Positions 11,085 through 62,178 of a stretch of DNA of 64,000 nt are shown one piece after another; the stretch's first letter is position 1; the number at the start of each line of letters is the position of its first letter. Under the pieces are notes generated by a model. It was not told the origin of the DNA. It saw nothing but the letters and a program-made list of their open reading frames with translations, and made no database searches. Source of the DNA: Flavobacteriales bacterium (GTDB lineage Bacteria > Bacteroidota > Bacteroidia > Flavobacteriales_C > GCA-002722245); NCBI GenBank assembly GCA_023251095.1, contig JAHEZL010000001.1, positions 1-64,000 on the forward strand, read 5' to 3'. Position numbers and translations under genes: made by a program.

Positions 11085-11146
11085 TCCCACAGATTTCACG
11101 AATTTTCACAGATTGCAATCTGTGTTGATCTGTGAAATCTGTGGGA
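11085..11146. repeat. Palindromic repeat, copy 1 (cccacagatttcac family)
   Basis: The arms tcccacagatttcac and gtgaaatctgtggga pair perfectly, with a further cacagatt/aatctgtg pairing in the loop. A near-identical element lies at 25128-25193. It fills the gap between tpiA and prmA, so it must be transcribed in the run if that run is one operon. Confidence 0.85.
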
Positions 11147-11152
11147 AAAATT

Positions 11153-25127: not shown

Positions 25128-25193
25128 TCCCCCACAGATTTCACAGATTTTCACGGATCTAAGTTCTGTGTCGATCTGTGAAATCTGTGGGAA
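25128..25193. repeat. Palindromic repeat, copy 2 (cccacagatttcac family)
   Basis: The arms cccacagatttcacagat and atctgtgaaatctgtggg pair around an inner hairpin. Sequence and layout match 11085-11146. It lies between the FAD/Fe-S dehydrogenase and the DUF5723-type gene, both on the minus strand. Confidence 0.85.
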
Positions 25194-25196
25194 ATT

Positions 25197-32284: not shown

Positions 32285-32458
32285 AAAATCCCTCTTGCCA
32301 TCACACAATAATCCCCTCCCACTCTCCCTTTTTTCAAAGGGAGAAGCCCAGCCTCATCCATTCTCAATAAAATGTTTTTCAGGAAATGGTCGCTAACTTT
32401 CTTCCTCCTTTAAAAAAGGAGGAGTGCGAAGAAATTGTGCGAGGGAAAGGAGGATTTC
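32285..32458. repeat. Nested palindromic intergenic element, copy B
   Basis: Resembles 2825-2989 in order and sequence: aaatccctcttgcc..., actctcccttttt..aaagggag, cttcctccttt...aaaggaggag, then aaggaggattt. It lies between convergent genes and could act as a two-way terminator. Confidence 0.75.
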
Positions 32459-41845: not shown

Positions 41846-41968
41846 AGCACGTCATTGCGAAATTTTTGTACTCAAAAATGAAGCAACCTCCTTTCGGGTA
41901 AGTAAATTCAATAAAAGCATAATGAGTTTGCTTCATTTTTGAGTACAAAAATTTCGCAATGACGTGCT
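41846..41968. repeat. Perfect 41-bp inverted repeat with 41-nt spacer
   Basis: Arms 41846-41886 and 41928-41968 are exact complements, starting agcacgtcattgcgaaattt. A diverged half-copy, preceded like this one by cactccgtc, lies just after rlmD at 46444-46488. It separates convergent genes (exonuclease and SPOR protein) and would form a very stable hairpin in either transcript. Confidence 0.9.
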
Positions 41969-46443: not shown

Positions 46444-46488
46444 ACACTCCGTCCTTGCGAGAATTTTGTACTCAAAATTGAAGCAATC
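46444..46488. repeat. Half-copy of the 41846-41968 inverted repeat
   Basis: The stretch from cactccgtccttgcgagaa to aaattgaagcaatc is a single-arm, diverged version of the left arm and flank of the element at 41846-41968. It begins 10 bp after the rlmD stop. Confidence 0.6.
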
Positions 46489-46520
46489 TCATTTCTTCAG
46501 CTTAGGCTTTATCTTCACAT

Positions 46521-52880: not shown

Positions 52881-52930
52881 GAATTAAAAAGGGACAGCGA
52901 CTACTAAATGGTCGCTGTCCCTTTTAATTC
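52881..52930. terminator. REP-like hairpin, probable two-way terminator after the GH18 gene
   Basis: The stem gggacagcgac (52891-52901) pairs with gtcgctgtccc (52911-52921), extended by aattaaaa/ttttaatt. The T run on each strand fits intrinsic termination for the convergent GH18 and 53245 genes. The gggacag core recurs in the hairpins at 60113 and 61849. Confidence 0.7.
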
Positions 52931-52958
52931 CCCTCTGTTTTTTCTGCCACGCCTCTCC

Positions 52959-53120
52959 AAGTTTAGCGCAGCGAACTTGGAGATTTTACGAATGAACTTA
53001 GAAGCTTTCAGCTTCTTTCCTCGAAGAGGAACAATAAAAAATATTTTTTTCTTGCAGAAAAAGGAAGTTGAAAACTTCCACGTAAACCCGTAGTTTCGCA
53101 AAGTTCGCTGCGCTAAACTT
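52959..53120. repeat. Paired hairpins with complementary 20-bp arms
   Basis: aagtttagcgcagcgaactt (52959-52978) is the exact complement of 53101-53120. Each copy is also self-complementary at its ends (ccaagtt/aacttgg; cgcaaagtt/aactttgcg), so the RNA could fold as two separate hairpins or one long stem. Three smaller hairpins lie between. Confidence 0.8.
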
Positions 53121-53244
53121 TGCGAAGCGAAGAACCGCTTCGGTTCATTATTTATACCATTGAACGCAGCCGTAACGCAATCTTGAGGGGTTGAAATTGG
53201 GAAAGTGATCAGAGTAGATTTGATGTGGTGGATTTGTTGGGGTT

Positions 53245-56452: not shown

Positions 56453-57001
56453 ATGTCCTACTGTACTGCAATAGACTCCATGCCGGAAAACAGAAAAATC
56501 CTGCATAAATCCTATCACGATAAGTTATATGGTTTTCCTATCCACGACGACAATGAATTATTTTGCCGTCTTGTTTTAGAAATTAATCAGGCAGGATTAA
56601 GCTGGGAAACCATTTTGAAGAAAGAACTTACTTTTAGAAAAGCTTACCATAATTTCAATATCAAAAAAGTAGCTTCTTATGGTGATGCCGATAGAGAACG
56701 ATTGCTTAACGATGCGGGAATCATCCGCAATAAATTGAAGGTAAACGCTGCTATAGAAAATGCAAAAACCATTTTGCTGCTGCAAAAAGAATATGGTTCA
56801 TTTGAAAAATGGCTGGAGCATCATCATCCTAAAACCCAACCCGAATGGGTTAAGTTATTCAAGAAAACCTTTCGGTTTACCGGTGGTGAAATAGTTAATG
56901 AGTTTTTGATGAGCATAGGTTATTTGCCGGGCGCCCATTCAAGCGATTGCAATACATACAAGGAAATAGTAAAGGCAAAACCAATGTGGTTGAAGAGGTA
57001 A
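56453..57001 (+). CDS. tag: DNA-3-methyladenine glycosylase I
   Basis: Removes 3-methyladenine from alkylated DNA. The 182-residue protein follows the Tag pattern. The zinc-snap ligands are Cys4, His22 (KSYHDKLYG), His162 and Cys166 (GAHSSDC). The DNA-binding and base-pocket part is LVLEINQAGLSWETILKK, and the HhH-like region is GIIRNKLKVNAAIENA. The usual tryptophan after Cys4 is replaced (CTAI), a modest departure. A 92-percent-identical copy of its last 72 bases lies at 60161-60232. Confidence 0.9.
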   Translation: MSYCTAIDSMPENRKILHKSYHDKLYGFPIHDDNELFCRLVLEINQAGLSWETILKKELTFRKAYHNFNIKKVASYGDADRERLLNDAGIIRNKLKVNAAIENAKTILLLQKEYGSFEKWLEHHHPKTQPEWVKLFKKTFRFTGGEIVNEFLMSIGYLPGAHSSDCNTYKEIVKAKPMWLKR

Positions 57002-57008
57002 TACGGTA

Positions 57009-57143
57009 ATTTCAGATTTAGCGAAGCGTAATCTGAAATCCTTTTTTCAGGCATTTGCAATGCCGTTGTGCATTCACTAATTAAAATATACAAATGCGAT
57101 TGAAAATCGCTTTAACTTTTGCTTCAAATTAAAAATTTGAAGC
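57009..57143. repeat. Row of four hairpins after tag
   Basis: Successive stems are atttcagatt/aatctgaaat (57009-57039), ggcat/atgcc (57050-57064), gcgatt/aatcgc (57096-57110) and gcttcaaatt/aatttgaagc (57121-57143). They lie between the convergent tag and lectin genes. Confidence 0.7.
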
Positions 57144-57216
57144 TACCGCACCCCGCTTAGACTTCTTAAAACCAAAACTACTTTACTACGTTCGTTTGCC
57201 TGCGGTTAATCAACAG

Positions 57217-59871
57217 TTATCTTAGCAACGTCACCCTTCCAACTTCCTGTTTTTTATTTCCTCCACTTTTCCAGGTGCTCCAGTTTTTGTAGCTTATTTT
57301 CCAAACATACACATCAATCTGGGCATCGCGAAGGTTATTGTCTTTTTTCCCATTCCATCCCTCATCCATGTTATAAGAATGATAAATTTCTTCACCCCAT
57401 CGATCGAAAATACTGATTTCAAAATCATAAATATTTTCGCCTTTCATATAAAAGAGGTCGTTTGTTCCGTCGCTGTTCGGACTAAAGGCATTCGGACTGA
57501 ATATAGTAGAAACACATTCTTCGTAGATGTTTAGAGTGTCGCTGTTTTTGCAAGCGAATTCACTGATTAACTCCACAATATATGTTCCTTCCTTTTTAAC
57601 AGTGATGACTTGTCCGCTTTGCCCGTCGCTCCATTGATAATCCTTTGCAGTGGGTCCAGCATCAAGAGATAAGCCGTCGGCCAGCAGTAAAAAACATACC
57701 GTACTGTCTTTGAGTCGCAATACTTTTGGTGCATCATGAAGTGCAAATGTTGCTGAATCAGCACCTTTGCATCCCTTGTCATCTGTGACATTCAGAGTAT
57801 AAACACCAGCTACAGAAACCGTAATTTCGGGATTGTTGCTGGAGAAAGAAGCGGGTCCATTCCAGAGATAAGCAGCATAGGTTCCGCCATTTAAAACTGC
57901 TGTTTCTCCCTGACATTTATCGGCATTGCCTATCAATGGAGAGGGTAATTCCTTGACGCTTACAGCAATACTTCCATCTCCTTCGCAACCTGAAGGATTT
58001 ATAAGATGAACATGGTAAGTACCTGCATTAGTCACGCTAACAGGATTGGTGTTGTTGCTGTATGCATTCGGACCGTTCCAAGCGTAAGTGGTTCCCGGCA
58101 CAAAATAATTTGCGCTGAGCAATACCGAATCTCCCTTGCAAATGGAAACATCCGGTCCGAGGTCAACTGCAATACTGGAGTTTATTGTTAATATTCCTGT
58201 CGCCGAAGCTTTACAACCATTGGCATCTGTAACCACACAAGTGTAATTGCCGGGAGTATTTCCTGTTGTGGTTTCCGAGGTTCCTGTTCCATTTTCGCTC
58301 CATAAATAAGCGGTATAAATTCCTGCATCAAAAGTAACAGCAGGATCACCCGCACAAATAGTTTTGTTAGCAATAGTTGGAGTTGGTAAAGTATTCACCG
58401 TTAACACAGCAGTAGTTGAAGCTTTACAGCCATTGGCATCGCTTACCTGAACAGTATAATTTCCTGCCTTTGTACCAGAAGTAGTTCGGGTTGTTCCTGT
58501 TCCATTTTCACTCCATAAATAAGAAGTATAAATTCCCGCATCAAAAATAGCAGCAGGATCACCGGCGCAAATAGTTTTGCCGGCAAGGCTTGGAGTTGGT
58601 AAAGCATTCACCGTTAAAACGCCCGTAGCCGAAGCTTTACAGCCTTTTGCATCGGTTACCTGACAAGTATAATTTCCTGCAGTAATTCCTGATGTTGTTT
58701 GAGCAGTACCTGTTCCATTCGCACTCCACAAATAAGAAGCATAAATTCCCGCATCAAAAGTAGCAGCGGGATCACCGAGACAAATAGCTTTGTTAGCAAC
58801 GCTTGGAGTTGGTAAAGGATTTTCATTTACAGTAACATCGGTTTTACTTTCGCATTCCTGAACTCCCTGCAACTGAGTGACAACCACCTCATAAGTGCCA
58901 GGAGTACTCACAGAAGTGGATGACGTTGTTGCTCCATTCGACCAAGAATACTTTGAATAAGTGCCGCTTGTAACTTGCAAAGAGGTAGACGAGCCTGCGC
59001 AAAAATCACTACCTGTAGCTGCAACGGTAAAAGGAACGCAGCAAGCCCCCATTGAGCATTGCCATGGTATAGTAGTGCCATGTTCAGCTACCCACTGTTC
59101 ATTGGAAGCATTTGCTGTTGCCCCTGTAAATCCCCAGTATACCATATTGGAACCGAAAATACTGCGGTCGATACTTATGGAAAATTTCAATACTCCGTCT
59201 TCATACATCTTTAAGGTATTGGGTGCTATCCACTCAATACGGGGGTGATAATATTGATTTCCATAGGGAATACACGATTCTAAATCGGCATTATGAATAA
59301 TGGCCTGAGGTCCCCATAAAATATCGGCGGGAGAAGTGAGTTCACCAACGAAACCATTGCGCAATACAGTAACGTGATCATCTGCCAAATCATTTATTCC
59401 ATAAGCAGCATCGTTAAAATCGTCGAATTCAATGGCAATTGAATTTTTTATTTTTTCAGAAGCATTGCCTCCATAGCCCATGAATCCGCCACCACCACCC
59501 AAAGTGCTTAATCCCCTCGGATCATTTTGTAAAACAAAGGTCATTCCGTCGCCACCCCACTCTCCGCTCTGACATCCAAAAAAGAAATCAATGTCGACAT
59601 AAAAGTCTTTATCCAGATCGATTTTATTGGTACCCCAGGCCGCACTCGATTGCCATGGATTGGTGGGCGAGTCGCCAATATCCTGCGTTAATTGAATGGC
59701 TTTGTTGGCGAGGTTAACCGTTTGTCCGGTAATAGCATTATTAGATGTTATAGTGATAGGCAGTGTAAATAAATTAGTTTGTGCCTGTGCAGGACCATGC
59801 AATAATATCACATAGGCTAAGCTTAATTTATAAATGAATAAAAGTCTTTTATCATTTCTGAAAAAAGTCAT
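57217..59871 (-). CDS. L-type lectin surface protein with tandem repeats and T9SS type B tail
   Basis: An 884-residue secreted protein. The start at 59871 gives signal peptide 1-31 (ending GPAQAQ). An L-type (legume-like) lectin domain spans about 32-275, with DFYVDIDFFFGC, GGDGMTFVLQNDPRG, IAIEFDDFND and VYWGFTGATA. A series of Ig/SprB-like units of about 71 residues follows, three of them nearly alike (see 58190-58828). The end is a type B T9SS domain: SPNAFSPNSDGTNDLFY, EISIFDRWGEEIY, then DVYVWKISYKN. It is probably an adhesin. It sits between tag and a duplicated tag 3' end, on the opposite strand. Confidence 0.87.
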   Translation of the reverse strand: MTFFRNDKRLLFIYKLSLAYVILLHGPAQAQTNLFTLPITITSNNAITGQTVNLANKAIQLTQDIGDSPTNPWQSSAAWGTNKIDLDKDFYVDIDFFFGCQSGEWGGDGMTFVLQNDPRGLSTLGGGGGFMGYGGNASEKIKNSIAIEFDDFNDAAYGINDLADDHVTVLRNGFVGELTSPADILWGPQAIIHNADLESCIPYGNQYYHPRIEWIAPNTLKMYEDGVLKFSISIDRSIFGSNMVYWGFTGATANASNEQWVAEHGTTIPWQCSMGACCVPFTVAATGSDFCAGSSTSLQVTSGTYSKYSWSNGATTSSTSVSTPGTYEVVVTQLQGVQECESKTDVTVNENPLPTPSVANKAICLGDPAATFDAGIYASYLWSANGTGTAQTTSGITAGNYTCQVTDAKGCKASATGVLTVNALPTPSLAGKTICAGDPAAIFDAGIYTSYLWSENGTGTTRTTSGTKAGNYTVQVSDANGCKASTTAVLTVNTLPTPTIANKTICAGDPAVTFDAGIYTAYLWSENGTGTSETTTGNTPGNYTCVVTDANGCKASATGILTINSSIAVDLGPDVSICKGDSVLLSANYFVPGTTYAWNGPNAYSNNTNPVSVTNAGTYHVHLINPSGCEGDGSIAVSVKELPSPLIGNADKCQGETAVLNGGTYAAYLWNGPASFSSNNPEITVSVAGVYTLNVTDDKGCKGADSATFALHDAPKVLRLKDSTVCFLLLADGLSLDAGPTAKDYQWSDGQSGQVITVKKEGTYIVELISEFACKNSDTLNIYEECVSTIFSPNAFSPNSDGTNDLFYMKGENIYDFEISIFDRWGEEIYHSYNMDEGWNGKKDNNLRDAQIDVYVWKISYKNWSTWKSGGNKKQEVGRVTLLR
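58190..58828. repeat. Three 213-bp tandem repeats inside the lectin gene
   Basis: The landmark gaagctttaca recurs at 58205, 58418 and 58631, a constant step of 213 bp or 71 codons. Each unit encodes FDAGIY...YLWS.NGTGT...GNYT..V.DA.GCKAS. Neighbouring units on both sides are more diverged. The high likeness suggests recent expansion or gene conversion, and copy number may vary between strains. Confidence 0.85.
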
Positions 59872-60112
59872 TTTACAAAGGTTAGTGGTCGACATACAAA
59901 GCAATTTATTGGTAAAACAAACAAATAGCAAGTAATGTTACAACATAAATATCTGATTATCAATTATTTACAAACTATTCATTTTGCGCTTGAAGCGCAA
60001 AACAGCTTGCCTCTTATCATTGATTACCAGCGATTTAATTTTTATTAAGGAGGATATTTTTGCACTTAAAATGCAATCTGAAGGGAAAAGAATAAGAAGA
60101 ATAAGGACAGAG

Positions 60113-60157
60113 AATAAGGGACAGTCGTATATTTTTTATTTACGTCTGTCCCTTATT
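60113..60157. repeat. REP-like hairpin A (gggacagtcgta)
   Basis: aataagggacag (60113-60124) pairs with ctgtcccttatt (60146-60157), extended by cgta/tacg. The near-identical hairpin B is at 61849-61884. The tag fragment begins 3 bases after its last base. In the 633-bp gap 59872-60504 this hairpin and two gene fragments are the only features seen. Confidence 0.82.
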
Positions 60158-60160
60158 TTA

Positions 60161-60232
60161 GGCGCCCACTCAAGCGATTGCAAAACATACAAGGAAATAG
60201 TAAAGGTAAAACCAATGTGGCTGAAGGCGTAA
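60161..60232 (+). pseudogene. Duplicated 3' end of tag (23 codons)
   Basis: Encodes GAHSSDCKTYKEIVKVKPMW then LKA and a stop, versus GAHSSDCNTYKEIVKAKPMW then LKR in the intact gene. DNA identity is 66 of 72 bases. The likeness starts abruptly at ggcgccc, just after the hairpin, and contains the zinc-ligand pair His and Cys. An open frame runs into it from upstream (59984), but its first part is hairpin sequence, so it is not a gene. Confidence 0.92.
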
Positions 60233-60279: not shown

Positions 60280-60432
60280 TCAGGTCTTAATTAATTTTTT
60301 GGTAAACATTCCTTCACTTGTTACAATAACAGCGAAATATATTCCATCAGGAAGATTTGAAATTGAAAATTCAGTAGTCAAATGTTCTTGAATTAATTCT
60401 CCGGCAGTATTGTAAATCTTAATGCAACAGGC
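60280..60432 (-). pseudogene. Remnant of a T9SS-tailed protein (last 50 codons)
   Basis: The minus strand reads IKIYNTAGELIQEH, then FSISNLPDGIYFAVIV, then MFTKKLIKT and a stop. This is the second half of a type A T9SS sorting domain (conserved G-x-Y strand and K-K end). A stop codon lies directly upstream in frame and there is no start or signal peptide, so it is the stump of a lost secreted protein. Confidence 0.8.
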
Positions 60433-60504
60433 CTATATTTTTATTGCGTCTATCTCCTATTTTCTATCTTTATAAGCGGGCACTGTCCCTATATAACAAC
60501 AACT

Positions 60505-61074
60505 ATGACTGCAACACTTCGTCAAATAATAAAAGAAAGCATTTCCATTTCTGAAGAGGATCTGGATTTTATGACTTCTCTTTTTGAACCTTTAATATTG
60601 AAAAAAGAAACTTATTTTTTGGAGATTGGCAAATGGTGCAATCACGTAGCATTTATAAAGTCGGGAATGATGAGAATATTCTACACCAACGACAAAGGAG
60701 ATGATACTACTTGTCATTTTGCATTGCCTAATGAGTTTGTTACTTCTTTGTCGAGTTTTACAAGCCAAACACCTTCTACCGAAAACATACAGGCCATATT
60801 GCCAACGGAACTGCTTTTGATCAGCAAACAAAATTTAGAGCTTCTATATCAAAAGATCCCCGTAGCACAAGAATTTAGCAGGAAAGTAATAGAAAATTCA
60901 GCCATGATAATGGAAAAGCGTTTTTCTCTCTTTTTAAATAATTCGGCTGAAGAACGTTATCAACACCTACTGAAAAACCACCCTGTTTTAATTCAAACAG
61001 TACCACTAAATTATCTTGCTTCATACCTTGGTATTTCGCCACAGCATTTAAGCCGACTGCGAAAAAATATTTAA
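60505..61074 (+). CDS. Crp/Fnr-family regulator
   Basis: A 189-residue transcription factor. The N-terminal cyclic-nucleotide-binding-like domain (about 20-110) contains IKSGMMRIFYTNDKGDDTT and the FALPNEFVTSLSSF turn. A helical dimer region is followed by a short helix-turn-helix at the C-terminus (LNYLASYLGISPQHLSRLRK). It lacks Fnr cysteines and the exact cAMP-contact residues, as is usual for this Bacteroidota subgroup. The outer-membrane-type gene 61161 lies 86 bp downstream and is a natural candidate target. Both sit between hairpins A and B. Confidence 0.9.
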   Translation: MTATLRQIIKESISISEEDLDFMTSLFEPLILKKETYFLEIGKWCNHVAFIKSGMMRIFYTNDKGDDTTCHFALPNEFVTSLSSFTSQTPSTENIQAILPTELLLISKQNLELLYQKIPVAQEFSRKVIENSAMIMEKRFSLFLNNSAEERYQHLLKNHPVLIQTVPLNYLASYLGISPQHLSRLRKNI

Positions 61075-61160
61075 ACAAAGGCATTTCTTAACAAATGTTC
61101 AGTGCAATTGAATTTTACTGAACGAGCTTTACACCATTGTTAACTTAAAACTTTGGTACA

Positions 61161-61835
61161 ATGCAAAAAAATAGCAAAGCATTTCTCGTAGCAGTAACAA
61201 TTTTGTTGCTGGCGCAAACTTCTTTTGGACAAACAACAAAAGACAAAAAAGACTTTTTATACTCCAATCGCTTTAGTGTATTAGCAGGTTTAATTCAACC
61301 AATAGCATTAAAAGGTGGTAATGTTGAAGTTGACTATTTTACAAAAAAAATGAGTTTTGATTATTCTCACGGTTTTTCGTTAGATATGTCAGGAGCAACG
61401 CTAACAGGCGATGCAAAAACTCAACTCTTAGCCTATCATTTACCTCATTCAATAGGATTTGGAATTGGTTATCGTATTACTTCATTTCTGGACCTGCGAA
61501 TAGAACCAAAAATCCATATGTGGGAAGTGTATTATGACGGAGAAACTCTAAACACGGCCAATTTAATAAAGAGCTACAATACCTATACTCTTGGGCTCGG
61601 TTTATATTATCGCTATATGCCTTTTCAAAAAAAGGACAATTGGTTACAAGGCATTACTACAAGTACAAGCATACGTTGGTGGCCAAATATTGCTAGTACT
61701 CTAACAGAAAATAGTTTTACTTACTACAACAAGCTGACCTATAAAAATGAAACGCTACAAGCCGCAAACATTGGCATTGCAGGTTCGCAGTTTATATTTA
61801 ACGTGAGCGTTGGTTATACCTTTGGTGGAAAATAA
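61161..61835 (+). CDS. Outer-membrane beta-barrel-type protein
   Basis: A 224-residue exported protein with signal peptide 1-24 (ending TSFGQ) and about eight amphipathic strands. Phrases include HSIGFGIGYRITSFLDLRIEP and LGLGLYYRYMPF, with the final strand ending SVGYTFGGK, typical of a small barrel. The family is not recognised. A -7-like AAACTTTG box ends 5 nt before the ATG, suggesting its own near-leaderless transcript. It is downstream of the Crp/Fnr gene. Confidence 0.7.
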   Translation: MQKNSKAFLVAVTILLLAQTSFGQTTKDKKDFLYSNRFSVLAGLIQPIALKGGNVEVDYFTKKMSFDYSHGFSLDMSGATLTGDAKTQLLAYHLPHSIGFGIGYRITSFLDLRIEPKIHMWEVYYDGETLNTANLIKSYNTYTLGLGLYYRYMPFQKKDNWLQGITTSTSIRWWPNIASTLTENSFTYYNKLTYKNETLQAANIGIAGSQFIFNVSVGYTFGGK

Positions 61836-61848
61836 TTGGATGAGGATA

Positions 61849-61884
61849 AGGGACGGACGTATATTTTTATTTACGTCTGTCCCT
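61849..61884. repeat. REP-like hairpin B
   Basis: agggacggacgta pairs with tacgtctgtccct with one G-T pair. Loop and right arm almost repeat hairpin A (60113-60157). It is 14 bp after the stop of the outer-membrane-type gene and may terminate it. Confidence 0.82.
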
Positions 61885-61905: not shown

Positions 61906-62178
61906 TGGAATCAGTCCAAAAACCAGAACTCATATAAGTGGCATCCGGTAGATGATGAAAAATTAATTGAAAACTTTAACCTCGGATTAAAGAATCTCGA
62001 CGAGATTTTTACTCAAATCAATAAGGTGATTGTAATGGAAAATGACAGCAATACCAATTCATTATTATTATCGCTGGTTATAGAAAACGGCAAGTTGGTG
62101 CAATACAAAAGAACGCCAAAATGCTTTGATAAAACACTAACACCTAAGTTATTGAAGTTGATTGATCAGAACCAATAG
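61906..62178 (+). pseudogene. Orphan C-terminal coding fragment
   Basis: An open frame of 90 codons after an upstream stop and without a usable start: NSYKWHPVDDEKLIENFNLG, then NKVIVMENDSNTNSLLLSLV, then PKCFDKTLTPKLLKLIDQNQ. The first ATG is at 62035, too late for the whole fold. Composition is protein-like, so it looks like the end of a lost gene. It starts 22 bp after hairpin B. The family is unknown. Together with hairpin B it accounts for most of the 370-bp gap 61836-62205. Confidence 0.5.

Follow-up and report, generated by a model that had tools for sequence, protein, structure and literature searches.

Hairpins most likely formed by TIRtron ends, one of them beside a copy of the tag gene tail, in a Flavobacteriales genome

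Introduction

TIRtrons and TIRYT transposases were described in 2013 (Di Nocera et al., PMC3733652). In the available sections of that account, TIRtron repeats share the sequence GGGGWSAS and are found alone, in dimers and in clusters, and the available part of PMC6006769 places TIRYT in subclass 2.1 of TnpA-Y1. The family reported here is like TIRtrons in having a Y1/HUH gene between terminal inverted repeats, and GGGGWSAS is seen as GGGGACAG in elements of the sister species G003 and G004. It differs in that the two hairpins of main concern, A and B, have GGGACAG or GGGACGG, without the fourth G, and in that the genome studied here holds repeats only, as close-paired hairpins with variable inner stems. 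Some of the repeats also adjoin cut genes, which are not mentioned in the available sections of PMC3733652.

REPs and REPINs with their RAYTs (the GTAG family) are comparable as short extragenic palindromes that are mobilized, now or formerly, by Y1 transposases and lie mostly behind genes. In contrast, there is no GTAG foot here, a single arm forms no hairpin (by eye) and there are six copies, not hundreds. Large tandem duplications reportedly arise via recombination at REPs, a finding attributed to Shyamala et al. in 1990. REP join-points of tandem duplications resemble the present locus in having a palindromic repeat at a novel chromosomal junction; however, the junction here carries a 72 bp scrap, and no matching repeat was seen at the donor break. 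REP-type repeats are treated as accepted rearrangement hot spots in the available part of PMC11708052. MITEs and PATEs, the internal-deletion derivatives of IS200/IS605-type elements, likewise keep their ends and lose the transposase, as seen in a 61 bp element of G004 (see below), whereas the ends here, being long inverted repeats, can fold into one hairpin. In this work, a small family of hairpins from a single Bacteroidia genus is assigned to a transposon kind that is described but little studied.

Hairpins and gene fragments in the window

The window, i.e. the whole 64,000 nucleotide stretch of DNA that was analysed, contains the following features.

52891..52921, no strand: third paired hairpin in the window, of the other subfamily (GGGACAGCGAC) (fold, covariance model)
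56453..57001, + strand: tag, 3-methyladenine DNA glycosylase gene, the intact donor (Pfam Adenine_glyco 4.8e-40)
56930..57001, + strand: donor segment, the final 72 bp of tag including the stop codon (direct repeat D3; local-alignment limits)
60113..60157, no strand: hairpin A, most likely paired terminal inverted repeats, core GGGACAG...CTGTCCC at 60118-60152 (single-stranded DNA fold; covariance model 64.4 bits, being one of its 12 training rows)
60161..60232, + strand: copy of the tag tail, a 5'-truncated pseudogene scrap (repeat search, local alignment)
60286..60432, - strand: tail of a T9SS sorting-domain gene, all upstream parts missing (Por_Secre_tail 2.4e-07, profile positions 24-74 of 75)
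60437..60463, + strand: degenerate right-arm-like copy of the hairpin family (74 % match, repeat family D7)
60505..61074, + strand: regulator gene between hairpin remnants, which we take to be Crp/Fnr-like (ORF)
61161..61835, + strand: putative outer-membrane protein gene, partner of the regulator (ORF; named by eye)
61850..61883, no strand: hairpin B, most likely the second case of paired terminal inverted repeats (fold -12.3 kcal/mol, z -6.5; covariance model 54.7 bits, also a training row)
61906..62178, + strand: tail of a zeta-toxin-like NTPase gene, 5'-truncated, homology from about 61942 (frame with stop; relatives' alignment)

A reading made from the sequence alone had noted that a tag tail starts three bases past a hairpin, with homology that begins abruptly and is 92 % over 72 bp, and repeat search, folding and alignment bore this out. 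Folded as single-stranded DNA, hairpin A reaches -14.1 kcal/mol (z -7.7), which none of 200 shuffles equalled, and the three bases between its foot and the copy are 60158-60160. The copy is intergenic, runs in the sense of tag through to the stop codon and forms a direct repeat with the donor segment (66/72 identical). Local alignment of the two tag-tail copies stops at exactly 56930-57001 and 60161-60232, and when their 300 bp flanks were aligned locally and compared with shuffles no homology was found on either side (upstream, score 18, shuffle mean 19.6, 250/300 shuffles as good; downstream, score 20, shuffle mean 19.8, 157/300 as good). At the stop-codon limit there is no hairpin of the family of A alongside either copy.

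The best relative of tag is in G003 (86 % identical). Over the 72 bp, the G003 gene matches tag at 50 positions, as against 47 for the copy. Five codons differ between tag and the copy; when G003 is taken as outgroup, one of them appears to have changed in tag and most of the rest in the copy, numbers too few for a test. A foreign source of the scrap was rejected among the relatives compared because the copy is closer to this genome's own tag (66/72) than to that of the best relative (47/72). As a separate observation, tag is 80 % identical to the gene in G029, a member of another family, yet 66-69 % identical to those of three other species of the same genus. Because this similarity does not track kinship, the comparison hints at horizontal transfer of tag.

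A distance of 1.7 kb separates hairpins A and B, and they are not independent cases. No intrinsic terminator was found at either by the terminator scan. Hairpin A was rejected as a terminator on this result and on the ORF list, which has no forward gene ending just before it; for hairpin B, which is 14 bp past the stop codon of the putative outer-membrane protein gene, a terminator role is possible. The degenerate copy at 60437..60463 gave no stable hairpin on folding, and the T9SS tail that adjoins it was left out of the count of cut genes given below. Residues 13-88 of the zeta-like tail correspond to 131-203 of 207 in one relative and to 131-201 of 202 in another (35-36 % identity). A relative matches Zeta_toxin (2.8e-08), and the tail runs straight into right-arm-like sequence, as the transposase genes do.

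The gene pair at 60505-61835 is syntenic in G003:C110, where it has no hairpins and other neighbours. Upstream, the region of a T9SS gene matches G004:C39 to about 60083 and diverges thereafter. The neighbourhood has therefore undergone rearrangement, in at least one lineage, on each side of the hairpins.

Distribution and covariation of the hairpin family

Four places in this genome carry the pattern GGGACAG-N8..38-CTGTCCC, whereas its reversed control has no match here, and a search of 99 other genomes found the pattern in 8. Two of these belong to the same genus, G003 (two matches) and G004 (three matches), and have similar AT-rich loops. The remaining six genomes are from other families and have one match each; four of them had control matches equal to or above this number, and the matches in all six are probably due to chance.

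A covariance model was built from 12 hairpins and used to search 11 genomes, seven of which had a match, with the training rows matching by construction. In this genome it recovered six paired places (C14:52886, 60113 and 61845; C5:65645 and 70360; C34:105087), the only new one being C5:65645. A seventh place, C34:109260, has a single arm. Three of the six paired places are within 9 kb, in the window. In the aligned stems, 25 cells were altered on both sides compared with 11.8 in shuffles (0/500), and slid controls gave 0-4. Because the search pattern fixed the outer seven pairs in most rows, it is the inner pairs whose covariation carries information.

The same hairpin is found at what is apparently the same site in G003:C20:6485 and G004:C103:5841, with both arms changed, and these appear to be old, vertically kept copies. 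When one exact form of the hairpin was used to scan a species collection, which may omit this genome and its near kin, a single stretch was returned and its neighbours are seemingly whole. A literature match to 'gggacag' was discarded, as it is a PCR primer in the available text of PMC4853749.

Transposase genes and complete elements

A search of this genome with Pfam Y1_Tnp brought up an IS200-type TnpA in C4, part of a second one and, where contig C10 ends, a transposase of REP type. It found no intact transposase of the kind expected for hairpins A and B, and there is no GGGACA or TGTCCC within 1.2 kb of the C10 gene. The sequence-only reading had proposed looking for a RAYT elsewhere in the genome; the C10 gene is of REP type, but a transposase gene with ends of the A and B type was found only in sister species.

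A complete element is present in G003:C118. It consists of a left end, GGGGACAGACGTA, the gene and a right end, TACGTCTGTCCCC, in inverted order, and the right side after the gene reads ...TACGTCTGTCCCCC. The transposase has 221 codons from the likely ATG and includes HVH as its HUH motif and YVELNP as its Y---NP motif. Its sole Pfam match was Y1_Tnp (6e-17); a further C-terminal HTH domain is characteristic of subclass 2.1. Against the NCBIfam model for REP-associated tyrosine transposases, NF047646, it scored 69.3 bits (3e-19) and the C10 protein 68.7 bits, both under the curated equivalog cut-off of 80 bits.

Further elements were found in G004 and G001. A similar transposase gene in G004:C78 has the right end directly after its stop codon. 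A second transposase type, in G004:C31, has ATGGTCGCTGTC behind it, which is the arm sequence of the other hairpin subfamily, the one represented at 52891, and a third type, in G001:C95, is accompanied by CCGTCTGTCCC. Also in G004:C31 is a 61 bp element made up of 45 bp of the left end (39/45 identical to that in G003) and the right end, and it is an internal deletion derivative of a transposase element. Since Y1 genes in sister species have the same ends and the 61 bp derivative is an internal deletion, hairpins A and B are most likely the paired terminal inverted repeats of a TIRtron/TIRYT element that has lost its transposase gene. The suggestion of a REP-like hairpin thus holds insofar as the family is tied to a tyrosine transposase of REP-associated type, and the hunch on the transposase class was correct. 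The family is one already described, and the hairpin is not a GTAG REP but most likely a dimer of terminal inverted repeats. Identity as a GTAG REP was rejected on the flanks of the 12 aligned hairpins, which show no unpaired GTAG (or GTGG) 5' foot.

Two arrays were also observed. In G004:C78 (L023 326-590) about five right-end units, AAAAATATACGTCTGTCCCCTATTT, are in tandem by one paired element, and in G004:C49 (L035 1500-1680) several truncated CTGTCCCCTATTT pieces are interspersed with CTATTT units. The C10 transposase gene (L010 2560-3155) has frame changes at the contig end and adjoins GCGAAGCG and GTAGAAGCTTTCAGCTTC hairpins. An exact second occurrence of the GTAGAAGCTTTCAGCTTC palindrome is in the window at 53001-53015 (region 52955-53130), and this palindrome may be the REP of the C10 transposase gene.

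Cut genes beside family ends

Both flanks were read at 21 places drawn from five genomes (G000, G001, G003, G004 and G005), the G004:C78 and G004:C49 arrays among them. Cut genes were called from open frames, with a family search for suspects. Cut genes adjoin family ends at 5 of the 21 places, a count from a reading that was not blind and has no matched control behind it. These are hairpin A with the tag tail, hairpin B with the zeta-toxin-like NTPase tail, the left hairpin of G003:C116 with the tail of a T9SS protein, the left end of the complete G003:C118 element with umuC from model position 193 of 422, and, as a weak case, G004:C68 with a DUF3078-like head (E 0.027; GH114 is better at 0.003, and both are under the cut-off). 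In four cases what is left is a 3' tail, reading away from the element, and in one a 5' head. No cut gene was recognized at the other 16 places.

On the right side of the G003:C118 element a 296-codon frame runs open from the element and reaches its first M at index 118; it may be a cut gene, but it gave no family match and was not counted. A 75 aa ORF at L095 was rejected as a gene tail, since the frames of its relatives are 72-75 aa and it is thus whole. For the T9SS tail in G003, no donor above 38 % identity besides the tail itself was found among the matches listed. Among the cut genes a donor can be seen for tag alone, which leaves one case in which capture rather than truncation is shown.

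In this genome, the four other paired hairpins are between apparently whole genes, and the single arm at C34:109260 is likewise without a cut gene. The idea that the hairpins mark recombination or transposition endpoints thus gains from the ends that adjoin cut genes at hairpin B, G003:C116, G003:C118 and, weakly, G004:C68, and loses from the four of six paired hairpins here that lie amid apparently whole genes. Hairpins standing only beside intact genes, the finding that had been named as telling against this idea, are seen in this genome outside the window but not in the sister species. The proposed check for truncated neighbours covered the 21 places in five genomes, and with cut genes at 5 of them an enrichment of fragments beside the hairpins is unproven. 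A literature search for RAYT with 'gene fragments' gave nothing relevant among the matches listed. The junctions with tag, the zeta-like gene, umuC and the T9SS gene are concrete candidate cases in which such ends may have caused rearrangement.

Origin of the junction between hairpin A and the tag tail

On balance, and with modest confidence, we favour hairpin A being a non-autonomous remnant of TIRtron kind and the tag scrap being a product of illegitimate joining at a transposon-end palindrome. Loss of the transposase gene would have brought together two terminal inverted repeats of a Y1/HUH element as hairpin A. A DNA break, or a fork that stalled, at the palindrome's foot would have been joined to the inside of a tag copy, for example by way of a tandem-duplication join-point or template switching, and the remainder of the tag copy would have been lost or never copied. 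Action of a transposase on tag would be unnecessary. We infer both the origin of hairpin A by gene loss and the mechanism of joining. The support for this as the best explanation is that the foot of the hairpin is one limit of the copy and that its flanks show no homology, together with the sister elements, the recurrence beside cut genes, the covariation and the accepted role of REP-type repeats as rearrangement hot spots. Against it are the 16 of 21 places where no cut gene was recognized, the non-independence of A and B, the lack of a matched control, and the stop-codon limit of the scrap, where neither copy has a hairpin of the family.

The join may perhaps have been guided by TTATTT, which is common to the hairpin foot (60153-60158) and the interior of tag (56920-56925), two and four bases, respectively, from the start of the repeat. 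This is suggestive only; matches of six AT bases are frequent where DNA is AT-rich.

Coincidence is unlikely. A decaying second copy of tag or of its end would then lie beside a hairpin that was inserted by ordinary transposition or that had merely persisted in the same intergenic space. The elements live in intergenic DNA, which is less than one-tenth of the window and leaves little room to share, and most of the hairpins have no adjoining fragment. However, when a 72 bp fragment was placed at random in the intergenic space of the window, with ORFs of ≥90 aa masked, only 27 of 4189 placements (0.6 %; post hoc, as the test was done after the tag case had been seen) brought an end to ≤8 bp from any of the three paired hairpins, and cut genes recur beside such ends in sister species.

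It is also improbable, in our view, that a Y1 transposase captures gene tails by starting at a right end and sometimes stopping at a fortuitous upstream site, with 5'-truncated DNA, among it the 3' tails of neighbouring genes, then being moved and added behind an existing right end. This would fit the four of five cut genes that are 3' tails reading away from the element, and the way in which the zeta-like tail ends. Right-end pieces and transposase tails are also found behind right ends in G004:C78, G004:C49 and G001:C79. In the last of these, which is outside the 21 places, one transposase lacks its 5' part and the tail of another stands behind a right end. On the other side, a donor is visible for tag only, the relatives of the zeta-like tail being only 36 % identical, and the tag donor has no right end of the hairpin family behind it. 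This genome has no intact transposase of the kind, and the excess of tails over heads rests on n=5. The broader proposal, that one-ended Y1 movement from the right end builds arrays of transposon ends and gene tails as a bacterial counterpart of 5'-truncated retrotransposition with transduction, we regard as quite doubtful. If the transposase does make the joins, Y1 gene-tail capture would be a further route to gene scraps and fusions in bacteria.

Least probable, and in our judgement very unlikely, is an integration scar, with 57002-60160 (a T9SS gene and hairpin A) entering tag at its 3' end as a site-specific element or as a circle through single crossover, as the 72 bp direct repeats that include the stop codon do surround one T9SS gene whose upstream neighbour differs in G004 (TfoX-like by eye), but no integrase is among the ORFs listed between the repeats, the changes polarized with G003 are more in the copy than in tag (few sites), and the repeat ends sharply at the hairpin.

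Other repeats

Several further repeats were seen in the window. Repeat D8, CGTCATTGCGA...TTTTGTACTCAAAA...GAAGCAA, is intergenic and occurs at 41850-41895 and 46450-46495, and at about 1545-1590 of L001; by eye, it also adjoins the hairpin at C5:70365. Two intergenic repeat pairs, D4/D6/D11 (2848-2962 and 32310-32428) and D9/D12 (11086-11148 and 25131-25194), are 83-97 % alike.
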